From Anaerostipes butyraticus (GTDB taxonomy: Bacteria; Bacillota; Clostridia; Lachnospirales; Lachnospiraceae), in assembly GCF_016586355.1 (NCBI RefSeq), contig NZ_BLYI01000002.1, positions 1-52,697 of the forward strand: a stretch of 52,697 nt of DNA, in the 5' to 3' direction. The translations under genes were made by a program, and so were the position numbers. The notes beneath the pieces are model-generated. The model was not told where the DNA came from. It did no database searches and saw nothing but the letters and a program-made list of their open reading frames with translations. Below, piece after piece: positions 6,888-40,509 of the stretch; position 1 is the stretch's first letter; every line of letters begins with the position of its first letter.

Positions 6888-7298
6888 ATGAAAAAATTTC
6901 GAAAAGCAATTGCTCTCTGTTCTCTTTGCTCCCTTGTCCTTCTGTCATCCTCCATTACTCCCGTCTCCGCAGCCAATGACTGGGATGGCTTTCAAAATGT
7001 TACCATTGGCTTATCATTCGGTACTTTAGGACGAGCTGATTTTTATACCTCTGTGATTCCCAGTGTTGGAACTTATTATTCAACCATTACAATGAAACTG
7101 CAGCGATATTCTGGCGGATCCTGGCATACTTTAGCCAGTGGTACTCATGGTGAAACTGGAAGCAATTTATTTAGCAGTTCCTACTATGTAACAAAAGGCT
7201 ACACTTACCGTGTTCACAGCACTGTTACAATTTACAAATCCAAAGGCGGCGCTAAAATCAACAGCGACACCTTCACCTATAAAAACAGCTATAAATAA
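6888..7298 (+). CDS. Small secreted protein, unknown function
   Basis: The 136-residue product has a classic Sec signal peptide (basic MKKFRK, hydrophobic core to about residue 22, cleavage near VSA/AND at 28). The mature part of about 107 residues is rich in Ser, Thr, Tyr and Gly and in alternating beta-strand pattern (YYSTITMKLQRYSGGSWHTLASG), suggesting a small beta-sandwich. No cysteine is left in the mature chain and there is no sortase signal. GAAAGGA precedes the ATG. It lies just downstream of the sigma/anti-sigma unit but behind its terminator, so it may be a target of that sigma factor; this is inference. I do not recognise a named family. Confidence 0.75.
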   Translation: MKKFRKAIALCSLCSLVLLSSSITPVSAANDWDGFQNVTIGLSFGTLGRADFYTSVIPSVGTYYSTITMKLQRYSGGSWHTLASGTHGETGSNLFSSSYYVTKGYTYRVHSTVTIYKSKGGAKINSDTFTYKNSYK

Positions 7299-7673: not shown

Positions 7674-7708
7674 AAAAAAAGCATCAGCGCTTTTACAACA
7701 GCTGATGC
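7674..7708 (-). terminator. Terminator of the ATPase/nuclease operon
   Basis: GCATCAGC (7681-7688) pairs with GCTGATGC (7701-7708); on the minus strand the stem is followed by seven T. It begins 12 bases after the nuclease stop. Confidence 0.85.
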
Positions 7709-7720
7709 CTTTATTGAGAA

Positions 7721-8446
7721 TTACAAAATTTTAGGCTGATGAATAGTTATATGTATATTCTTTTCTTTTACCATTTTCTCATATGTTTTTTTAAAGATTT
7801 GAGGTTCTTTTATTATCTTTTCTTTATCATATATAAAAAAATATATATTTTTTTCACTATAATGTATCATATCTGCTGCTATCTCTTCTTTCAATTTTCC
7901 TAACTGCATCGAAGGCCTGGTACATTTAACCTCTATCACCGTCTCAGAATCAAGAGAAATATCTGTTCTAACAGTTGCATATCCCATATCCTGATTTACT
8001 TCTGTTCTTGCCATCGGATATAAAGGCTTGAGATACGCAAATAACAAATGCTGTACATCATATTCATTTTCTATCTTTAATGCAGACAATTGTTCTTTTC
8101 TAATTCCGGCCCTTTTATTGGGATCTCTTTCTATTAAATTTTCTAGAAATAAGTCATAATGCTCTAATACTTGAAGCAGAATATTACTTTCTTCGTTATC
8201 AAGAAATTGCTCTATATAAGAAATAACCCTCTCTCTTGCCACCATCATTCTTTCTTGTGTATCTTTTTTGGAATACTCATTTGGAAGATAGTATGCTCTT
8301 CTTTCAAATTCTTTTATGCCTTCCGCACTCATCCCATCTTGTTTCAAATATTGTTTAAACAAAGTTACATTCATTTCAAATGTCTGCTCATTATCAGCTT
8401 TTTTAAAAGATGCCAAAGCTTCCTCTATACTATGAAACTCATTCAC
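7721..8446 (-). CDS. PD-(D/E)XK nuclease, DpnII/MboI-type (candidate defence nuclease)
   Basis: The 241-residue protein has a helical N-terminal part (1-125) and a C-terminal restriction-endonuclease-like core. The core shows ENEYDVQHLL (126-135), the catalytic aspartate in RTDI (Asp162) and the paired E-x-K in VIEVKCT (Glu172, Lys174), then a helix (EEIAADMIHY) and a strand IYFFIYDKEKII. This order is that of the REase_DpnII-MboI branch of the PD-(D/E)XK superfamily, here without any methylase. The start codon overlaps the upstream ATPase gene by 8 bp, so translation is probably coupled. The gene is AT-rich compared with the housekeeping neighbours. The nuclease fold is well supported; an anti-phage role is inference. 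Confidence 0.75.
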   Translation of the reverse strand: MNEFHSIEEALASFKKADNEQTFEMNVTLFKQYLKQDGMSAEGIKEFERRAYYLPNEYSKKDTQERMMVARERVISYIEQFLDNEESNILLQVLEHYDLFLENLIERDPNKRAGIRKEQLSALKIENEYDVQHLLFAYLKPLYPMARTEVNQDMGYATVRTDISLDSETVIEVKCTRPSMQLGKLKEEIAADMIHYSEKNIYFFIYDKEKIIKEPQIFKKTYEKMVKEKNIHITIHQPKIL

Positions 8447-9623
8447 CGTTTCTATTTCCTCCCCAACGCAGATAAAACAAAAATAATGGATCCAAAATAT
8501 ACAAAGTTCCTTCTTTCCAATCTAATACTCTGAATATATCTTCCCGTCCATTTAATAATTCCTGCAGCTTTGACAGACTCGATTTAATCGTCTGAGGAGT
8601 CGGCCCTTTACAGTCCTCTTTTAACAAATGATATATTCTTTCTTTCACATCCTCAAATTTTAATTTCATAATTGGTGGATTTTCCGCAATTGATTTTACA
8701 ATTAATTCGTAAATGTCACAGCTCTCTCCCTTTTTGGTTAGAAAATGATTTCTTCGTTTTCCTCTTGTACTAGGTCCTCTTTGTATTAATGTAATGACAT
8801 CTCCGTACTCAAAATTGGCTGTTGTATAGCGATATGCCTTTTCCAGAATTTCCTCTTTCACTTCTAATGAAGTATCATCAGATATCTCTAAAATAGTACA
8901 GATGTTCAAACATATATATTGCATCAACTGAGGAGAAGACAGACTTTCCACCGCAATTTTTTCAGCTATACTATCTTCAATTTTAATATTCAATATCGCA
9001 AATCCAACTTTCGCAATTTCCTTTAAATCCTGTACTTCCCATACCTCCATATTTATCAGACTAAGCCGGCCAGATAGATCCGCATTCTGACGTATTGCTT
9101 CGTCTGCTCTATGAGGTAAAGAAACGACAATGGCTTTAAATCCCCTCCGGATTGCATCTTTCAATTGTTGTGCAATTTGAAGTCGTTTTTTTACAGGTGC
9201 ATAATGAAAATCATCAATGACCAAAACCAGATTTTCTTTTTTGTAATATTCGATAATCTTATCTTTTGTCAGCGAAAAAGTTTCTTTTTTTGTATCTTTC
9301 GTATCCTCATTTTTTCTTTCCGAAAAAAATTGTCCTTCATAAGATAATCCGGCTTTTGCGGCAACTAATTTCCAAAAATCTGTATCGTCATTGAAATCTG
9401 CACCTGAAATCTCTACAATCTTTTCAAATCCAATTACTTTTTCACACAGGATTGTTTTTCCCATTTTAGATGGTCCCACCAAGGATGTCAAAAACCCGGA
9501 AACTCGTATTGCCTGCTTTAATCGAAACTCATATGATAAATCTGATGTTTTAGATTTTCTTGATATATAAGTATATTCAGGAAACGCTCCCGGCCTAAAT
9601 ACATCTTCTGCACGTAATTCCAT
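8439..9623 (-). CDS. STAND/AAA-type ATPase with C-terminal winged-helix region (candidate defence ATPase)
   Basis: The ATG at 9623 (394 residues) stands 7 bases after AAAAGGAGG; the TTG six bases upstream would be too close to it. Walker A is GPSKMGKT (50-57) and Walker B is LVLVIDD (132-138). A sensor-like strand VVSLPHRADEA (167-177) and an LSGR arginine follow, then a helical lid with SPQLMQYICLNIC, as in ORC/STAND-type P-loop ATPases. The last 130 residues look like one or more winged helices (LKFEDVKERIYHLL, PQTIKSSLSKLQELL, LYILDPLFLFYLRWG). It overlaps the nuclease gene and shares one promoter and one terminator with it. It is probably the sensor or regulator of that nuclease. No exact family name is claimed. 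Confidence 0.75.
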   Translation of the reverse strand: MELRAEDVFRPGAFPEYTYISRKSKTSDLSYEFRLKQAIRVSGFLTSLVGPSKMGKTILCEKVIGFEKIVEISGADFNDDTDFWKLVAAKAGLSYEGQFFSERKNEDTKDTKKETFSLTKDKIIEYYKKENLVLVIDDFHYAPVKKRLQIAQQLKDAIRRGFKAIVVSLPHRADEAIRQNADLSGRLSLINMEVWEVQDLKEIAKVGFAILNIKIEDSIAEKIAVESLSSPQLMQYICLNICTILEISDDTSLEVKEEILEKAYRYTTANFEYGDVITLIQRGPSTRGKRRNHFLTKKGESCDIYELIVKSIAENPPIMKLKFEDVKERIYHLLKEDCKGPTPQTIKSSLSKLQELLNGREDIFRVLDWKEGTLYILDPLFLFYLRWGGNRNGE

Positions 9624-9644
9624 ACTCAAACCTCCTTTTCTAAA

Positions 9645-9653
9645 ATTATATCA
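9645..9653 (-). promoter_or_regulatory. Extended -10 promoter of the ATPase/nuclease operon
   Basis: On the minus strand TGATATAAT provides an extended -10 (TATAAT 9645-9650). No good -35 is present. The leader would be only about 15 bases with an AAAGGAGG site. Confidence 0.6.
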
Positions 9654-9663
9654 CATTCTAACG

Positions 9664-9741
9664 CATTTTTATTGGTTTTTAATGATTTTTAAAGTATTTT
9701 AACCATTTTTACATAATTTAATCATTTTTAATTGGTTTTAT
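9664..9741. repeat. AT-rich direct repeats upstream of the ATPase promoter
   Basis: CATTTTTA-TTGGTTTT occurs at 9664-9679 and again as CATTTTTAATTGGTTTT at 9723-9739, with further CATTTTTA-like copies at 9704-9711 and GATTTTTAA at about 9684. They occupy the place of the missing -35 box, as expected for operator iterons. Their low complexity means chance similarity is possible. Confidence 0.45.
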
Positions 9742-9777
9742 CTTTTTTATAATATTTTTAATTCTTCTAATAAACAG

Positions 9778-40463: not shown

Positions 40464-40509
40464 TAATTTTTCAATCCTGTGGAAACAATCATTGAAAAAA
40501 AAACAATTT

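Follow-up and report, generated by a model that had tools for sequence, protein, structure and literature searches.

An ATPase-nuclease gene pair is headed by a phased DNA array

In a 52,697-nucleotide stretch of Anaerostipes butyraticus DNA (contig NZ_BLYI01000002.1, positions 1 to 52,697; hereafter the window), we analyzed a cassette of two minus-strand genes, encoding an AAA+ ATPase and a nuclease, whose promoter is directly preceded by ten short repeat units spaced about one DNA turn apart. Arrays of this kind are nearly restricted to the ATPase genes, and in a wider group of related ATPases their sequences covary with the helix-turn-helix (HTH) segment of the protein. On balance, we consider it probable that this is a mobile, self-controlled ATPase-DNase cassette in which the ATPase would polymerise on its private array, silence the operon and gate a suicidal DNase; a putative defence role is plausible. 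The original prediction for this DNA had described two overlapping genes for a P-loop ATPase and a nuclease, and both open reading frames (ORFs) are present with an overlap of 8 nt. The coordinates that it assigned to the pair (8439-9623) correspond to the ATPase gene, and the nuclease lies outside them, at 7721-8446. The array was overlooked. The features of the cassette are as follows.

8439-9623, minus strand: gene 1, AAA+ ATPase, 394 amino acids, a PDC-S59 relative with a Cdc6/RuvB-like fold (ATG at 9623, stop ends at 8439)
7721-8446, minus strand: gene 2, PD-(D/E)XK nuclease, 241 amino acids, REase_DpnII-MboI family, with a helical variable N-terminus (GTG at 8446)
9453-9476, minus strand: Walker A motif GPSKMGKT, residues 50-57
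9210-9230, minus strand: Walker B motif LVLVIDD, residues 132-138
8442-8723, minus strand: C-terminal winged-helix domain, about residues 301-394, placed by the secondary structure of the model; proposed array reader (covariation of HTH and array was seen in the wider group only)
7925-7963, minus strand: nuclease catalytic motif D162...E172-x-K174, invariant in the alignment and matching EcbAgaN D298/E309/K311
9668-9760, minus strand: phased array, ten TAAA units that follow each other at 11, 9, 10, 10, 9, 10, 10, 10 and 10 bp
9645-9653, minus strand: extended -10 promoter element TGATATAAT, called from sequence, directly after the array and ahead of the ATPase gene
9631-9638, minus strand: ribosome-binding site AAAGGAGG, called from sequence
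About 7674-7709, minus strand: operon terminator after the nuclease gene, a hairpin followed by a U tract (fold z -4.4)

The single promoter and single terminator of the original prediction correspond to the extended -10 element and the hairpin with its U tract, the latter being absent from the terminator list of the consensus scan. On the ATPase strand the TAAA units start at 9760, 9749, 9740, 9730, 9720, 9711, 9701, 9691, 9681 and 9671, and the -10 proper begins at 9650, downstream of the array. The promoter of the ATPase gene thus carries an operator-type feature, namely direct repeats that follow each other at about one turn of DNA. A pattern of three such units had 4 matches in the window, all at the array, versus 0.07 expected, and a chance origin was rejected on this ground. 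Throughout the 3.17-Mb genome of the strain, 6 of the 10 matches to a four-unit pattern fell at the array and the other 4 were isolated, while a control pattern gave 3 matches.

The array belongs to the ATPase gene

The same periodicity was found at related loci. After removal of near-duplicates (56 of 67 upstream regions kept), TAAA-TAAA distances peaked at 9, 10 and 11 bp (z 26, 32 and 13, respectively) with harmonics near 20, 30 and 40 bp, and the mean unit spacing was 9.74 bp in the 51 of 81 upstream regions that hold at least 4 units. At least 4 units preceded 44 of 60 ATPase genes versus none of 451 other genes of the same loci, one of which has 3; the array is therefore not a feature that promoters of these bacteria share in general. 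We also used a motif-blind test, in which the recurrence of 5-mers at distances of 9-11 and 19-21 bp is scored relative to dinucleotide shuffles. Leaving out 7 near-duplicates, z was at least 3 for 41 of 58 upstream regions of the nuclease-bearing lineage versus 10 of 451 other upstream regions. Distant relatives that bear the pair (L008, L009, L115 and L119) seem, by eye, to have a AGGTATAAA-like unit with the same pitch, and loci with a damaged nuclease still carry arrays (for example, seven units in L014 and eight in L045).

Phage contigs carry solo ATPases (27-31% identical) for which no nuclease was found, and 10-bp units of other sequence lie immediately before them. Four of these 6 reached z of at least 3 (L106, z 26; L109, z 33), with L110 and L111 at the z = 3 border and switching sides between two runs. 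By eye, the L106 and L109 arrays share a motif in opposite orientation (strand-symmetric similarity 0.61). None of the 3 nuclease-only loci (L076, L077 and L080) has an array, which rules out the array as a nuclease-linked element. Because solo phage ATPases have arrays and nuclease-only loci lack them, the array belongs to the ATPase and not to the nuclease.

Array sequence covaries with the HTH segment in a wider group of ATPases

The array pattern was also searched in 15 genomes, where 2 of 8 other places inspected (L143 and L150) precede solo AAA+ genes; a further pattern cluster (G368, contig C69) lies outside these 8 places. These two genes (L143:1354-2586 and L150:1405-2738), together with L007, L121 and most of L171-L209, form a wider group of solo AAA+/winged-helix proteins that usually have their own array of about 10-bp pitch directly upstream, with up to 8 and 6 members per genome. 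Once duplicates, partial matches and short upstream regions had been removed (33 of 60 loci kept), 27 of the 33 distinct loci had z of at least 4, and the units were diverse (for example, CAGTAAA, TTATATAA, AGTTATGAAA and GTTGTGACA). This threshold was reached by 5 of 53 mixed control upstream regions; in a separate run in which controls were split, it was reached by 4 of 8 that share the intergenic region of the ATPase and by none of 54 independent ones. Among plasmid-borne members of the wider group from Firmicutes and Actinobacteria, 5 of 7 had z of at least 3, and among plasmid-borne actinobacterial PDC-S59 relatives 0 of 3 did. In two Arthrobacter plasmid members (L238 and L242), the phased repeats ahead of the ATPase gene are richer in GC (GACTCACA, TTCACC-like).

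To relate arrays to proteins, we compared 32 of 34 arrays (496 pairs) by label permutation, which does not fully remove phylogeny. Array similarity followed HTH identity (Pearson 0.335, reached in 0 of 1000 permutations; Spearman 0.182, 0 of 300) and had a Spearman coefficient of -0.02 with the AAA core (188 of 300); the partial Spearman coefficient for the HTH given the AAA core was 0.212 (0 of 300). Mean array similarity was 0.08 below 40% winged-helix identity and 0.55 at 50-70% (17 pairs). In the recognition segment, examined by eye, NPYR tends to accompany AGTAAA units, and LFSVYR tends to accompany TATATAA.

Arrays that differ between relatives and track the HTH would also be expected if the ATPase inhibited the replication of foreign DNA and its own array titrated or licensed it, the private sequence preventing cross-immunity. 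This is how a system in the style of BstA and its element aba would work. Several phage solo ATPases, with arrays directly upstream, lie by eye near CI-like repressor genes, a frequent location of prophage defence genes. Each BstA locus carries a cognate aba element in which direct repeats are required, according to excerpts of PMC8585504. The same excerpts describe aba as a 63-bp element with two terminal repeats and not as a phased array; moreover, a cassette in the chromosome lacks a replication of its own that would need protecting, and the likeness to BstA is not based on sequence. We regard this explanation as quite unlikely.

The cassette encodes a Cdc6/RuvB-like ATPase and a relative of an abortive-infection DNase

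The Walker A and Walker B motifs were located as predicted, and K56, D137 and D138 do not vary across the alignment of 37 sequences. In an AlphaFold model of the ATPase (predicted local distance difference test, pLDDT, 86; predicted template modelling score, pTM, 0.81), the chain ends in a winged helix, in agreement with the C-terminus proposed before. A Foldseek search with this model gave Cdc6 (1fnn, E 1.2e-8) and RuvB (4.4e-8) as top matches, with modest template modelling scores of about 0.4-0.5 and among 761 matches at E<=0.001, as is usual for AAA+ proteins. With its Walker motifs, AAA+ core and C-terminal winged helix, the ATPase is an AAA+ protein of Cdc6/RuvB-like build. It matches the PADLOC profile PDC-S59 over residues 102-387 (E 3.6e-25, not set against PADLOC's own threshold), as do all 37 aligned ATPases at E<=1e-5 (best 2.4e-29) and the phage solo homologs L106 and L107.

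The assignment of the second protein as a DpnII/MboI-type nuclease holds: residues 111-237 match Pfam DpnII-MboI (PF18742) with E 3.7e-31 and 108.1 bits versus a cut-off of 27, and the protein matches the PADLOC Aga_Helical-REase profile (1.3e-17). A profile of 30 nuclease sequences found EcbAgaN (1.2e-11) in a match that spans the catalytic half only. The predicted residues D162, E172 and K174 are invariant in these 30 sequences and align with EcbAgaN D298, E309 and K311. In excerpts of PMC10620215, these three residues are essential in EcbAgaN, a proven abortive-infection DNase that cuts DNA non-specifically. The first 40 nuclease residues are hypervariable, with a mean pairwise identity of 31-32% per 20 residues in 23 close relatives, compared with 53-100% per bin in 25 ATPases. 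Between L017 (5700-8200) and L031 (1168-3700), identity per 100 columns is 96-100% in the ATPase DNA up to the very end of the gene and drops to 45% at the 5' end of the nuclease gene, a pattern that suggests recombination of the variable nuclease N-terminus. Two nuclease homologs of 46-47% identity (L076 and L077) occur without the ATPase, next to genes that look defence-like by eye (a DUF1016-like protein; a helicase and an AlbA-like protein).

The family name recalls restriction, and a methylase-less version, in which the ATPase helps the nuclease to cut specific DNA, could be drawn from a nuclease placed in a Pfam family named after DpnII and MboI. As had been noted before, the cassette has no methylase, and restriction-modification was rejected on that basis; no DNA methyltransferase or other third gene is conserved in the loci, and the closest characterised relative, EcbAgaN, is the non-specific enzyme described above. 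Specific cutting without a methylase is therefore highly improbable.

The pair occupies changing genomic places and its nuclease is repeatedly damaged

Pairing was analyzed in 60 loci, the window included, that have an ATPase ORF of at least 350 amino acids and at least 700 nt of DNA after it. Nuclease sequence lies next to the ATPase in 56 of them, which bears out the pairing in other genomes; the nuclease ORF has at least 230 amino acids in 40 loci and is damaged or shortened in the same place in 16, and the 4 loci in which it is missing after the ATPase all belong to the Selenomonad group. Only these two genes recur side by side, the remaining flanking genes being variable.

An ATPase match was found in 7 of 200 genomes of the family (own genome counted; G002 only distant), and a profile search of the order gave matches in 11 of 392 genomes, 7 of them strong and again with the own genome counted; a species-representative collection yielded 62 loci. 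In the window, the cassette (31.9% GC for 7721-9770 versus 39.8% for the window, the AT-rich block noted before) is flanked by dut on one side and a small convergent gene (6888-7298) on the other, and flanking genes are common to the window and a Candidatus Anaerostipes avistercoris contig (L010). Its earlier description as lying beside oriC was loose, as the dnaA ORF starts at 40479, about 31 kb away. Within the genus, dut was hit in 10 of 11 genomes and the cassette lies within 1.5 kb after it in 2 of these 10 (G000 and G200); in G206, which has no cassette there, the next gene resembles by eye the small flanking gene of the window. The pair also occurs on the Clostridioides phage ES-S-0173-01 (L124, 113-kb record, 85553-86722) and on a Paenibacillus plasmid, and solo ATPases occur on other plasmids and phage contigs. 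The cassette is patchy and changes chromosomal places, and it is probably horizontally mobile. Near-identical ATPase copies in G135 are uninformative on mobility because their shared upstream sequence runs to the contig end. In 11 loci (L011, L012, L013, L026, L030, L032, L033, L043, L045, L047 and L048), the cassette is directly preceded by a gene of a single cluster, C2 (by eye, SpmA/SpmB-type nucleoside-recognition membrane proteins), possibly a favoured insertion site.

This distribution bears on the idea of a regulator with housekeeping or stress duties, DNA repair for instance, to which the nuclease is an accessory. Such a role would suit a Cdc6/Orc-like AAA+ protein with a winged helix, a build shared by archaeal Orc1-2, which is reported to be a DNA-damage regulator. 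The patchy occurrence, the phage and plasmid copies and the 16 damaged nucleases speak against it, as does the own genome, which has no second multi-unit array to mark a regulon, and we consider it improbable.

Compared with the closest intact relatives, 7 of the 16 damaged nucleases have deletions of at least 76 nt, and the remaining ones show shifts of 1 nt or sequence that aligns poorly; L040 and L047 are doubtful cases. The ratio of nonsynonymous to synonymous substitution rates (dN/dS) between the ATPases of damaged-nuclease loci and those of their closest intact relatives, computable for 15 of 16 pairs and with some dS saturated, was 0.03-0.19, similar to intact pairs. As dN/dS is common to both branches, it does not date the nuclease damage, which differs between loci.

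Repeated damage to the nuclease beside a full-length ATPase is what a toxin-antitoxin or addiction module might leave, with the ATPase as DNA-binding antitoxin and autorepressor and the nuclease as a toxin kept by post-segregational killing. The regulator-first operon order, the autoregulatory-looking array, the phage and plasmid copies and the solo ATPases, reminiscent of orphan antitoxins, all fit. However, most copies are chromosomal with changing neighbours, where plasmid-style addiction gains little, and a simple antitoxin needs no strongly conserved AAA+ motifs. We therefore hold a toxin-antitoxin module to be unlikely, though the likeliest of the rival explanations.

A model for array-controlled gating of the nuclease

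From these observations we infer DNA binding, repression, gating and defence. The ATPase would bind its private array through the HTH, about one subunit per DNA turn, and a cooperative filament reaching the -10 element would repress its own operon; this autorepression is proposed from the position and spacing of the array and from the HTH-array covariation. At rest, the ATPase may hold the DNase of the pair at a low level, either inactive or scaffolded. Candidate triggers are DNA that invades or replicates, a nucleotide signal and a sign of DNA damage; any of these could pull the ATPase off the array or alter its nucleotide state, whereupon expression would rise and the ATPase would engage the nuclease. 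As judged from its homology to EcbAgaN, the DpnII-MboI/AgaN-type nuclease would then degrade DNA with little sequence specificity, leading to cell death or clearance of the invader in the manner of abortive infection.

Several results weigh against this model. In the motif-blind test, z was below 3 for 17 of the 58 nuclease-lineage upstream regions; no array was found in 10 Selenomonad, Paenibacillus, Niallia, actinobacterial and other PDC-S59 relatives or upstream of the distant ATPases L135, L140 and L122. The other 6 of the 8 pattern places inspected are not before AAA+ genes, and one stretch (L151:1500-1560; G176, contig C5), perhaps a remnant or an independent use of such arrays, has about six TAAA units with neither gene within 1.5 kb. 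In the wider group, array similarity has a weak Pearson correlation of 0.145 with the AAA core (15 of 1000 permutations) and a Spearman coefficient of 0.14 with the whole winged-helix region (16 of 500). Inside the PDC-S59 family, in a test run without L050 (no aligned residues in one region), the partial coefficients were 0.075 for the winged helix and 0.340 for the AAA core and are not separable. The existence of solo ATPases means that the nuclease is unnecessary for whatever the ATPase-array unit does. As loci were searched via the ATPase, its loss is under-seen, and broken or partial ATPases are present in L066, L069, L071 and L120. A fold search with the nuclease model gave no PDB match at E<=0.001. 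Finally, the enrichment near known defence genes that the original prediction named as a check was not apparent: PADLOC and Pfam scans of 145 of 157 neighbour proteins (12 dropped by hand to fit a size cap; 43 loci, at most 2 genes on each side, 100-900 amino acids, redundant loci removed first) gave scattered PADLOC matches with no background measured, and among the 25 commonest families listed (of 124 and 152) no PADLOC family matches more than 4 of the 145. Altogether, the observation behind the original prediction is confirmed and its interpretation is partly supported.

A more general and clearly more tentative idea, which we would not bet on at present, is array-addressed immunity or element control, in which AAA+/winged-helix ATPases across phyla mark their own locus with a private array of about 10-bp pitch and array occupancy acts as the sensor. 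The array would be an address read by the ATPase's own HTH and diversifying with the protein, so that several ATPases could work in one genome without cross-talk, and foreign, multiplying or modified DNA would displace the ATPase. The attached parts would differ by lineage, from nothing (solo, prophage and plasmid copies) to the AgaN-like DNase. We know of no named counterpart. Private arrays could explain the coexistence of the up to 8 and 6 such genes per genome, and, given the covariation between HTH and array, it may be possible to read from sequence which DNA is bound by the products of many genes annotated only as 'ATP-binding protein'.

Comparison with known systems

The claim that the system is undescribed stands in part. 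The ATPase family is already listed in PADLOC as candidate PDC-S59 (PDLC05049), where S stands for single gene. PDC denotes a phage defence candidate in PADLOC naming, according to excerpts of PMC11514479. The library entry, whose profile the ATPase fits, has no description; in the window, the gene has a nuclease partner and an array. In the literature searched, which did not cover preprints and most subscription papers, no mention of PDC-S59 was found, nor the pairing of the ATPase with a DpnII-MboI nuclease, nor, most notably, the private phased array. If the model is right, the cassette combines a DNase of AgaN type, an AAA+ switch resembling Cdc6 that takes the place of Argonaute, and a phased array private to that switch; this combination was likewise not found there, and the array offers a bench handle (binding, reporter and titration assays) on a PADLOC candidate of unexplained mechanism.

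Operators in which short sites are repeated at the promoter of the operon for the binding protein, as proposed here, are also those of the ParR/parC and omega/heptad partition systems; these differ in having ribbon-helix-helix proteins, separate motor ATPases and a role in plasmid segregation. BstA and aba resemble the cassette in that a gene comes with a cognate DNA element in cis that includes direct repeats, and every variant has an element of its own; they differ in that aba overlaps the gene start (excerpts of PMC8585504).

The closest tested mechanism is that of BPAN, a long-B Argonaute with an AgaN DNase (EcbAgaN, PDB 23wq), in which a partner-activated DNase kills cells, as described in excerpts of PMC10620215. 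Both nucleases belong to the same family with a matching D-ExK motif. However, the partner is an Argonaute there and an AAA+ ATPase here, no Argonaute gene lies in the cassette, whose ATPase is the sole conserved neighbour of the nuclease, no guide nucleic acid is known here, and EcbAgaN has 390 amino acids compared with 241 for the nuclease of the cassette.

For the array, the nearest likeness is to winged-helix proteins that polymerise on DNA (BldC, Xis and RdfS). In BldC filaments, one DNA turn separates bound molecules and one target has 9-bp direct repeats, according to excerpts of PMC11963761, and the spacing of the array fits this geometry. BldC, Xis and RdfS have been described as small winged HTH proteins, often without a strict sequence need, whereas here an ATPase domain is attached and the units are repeated and differ between ATPases.

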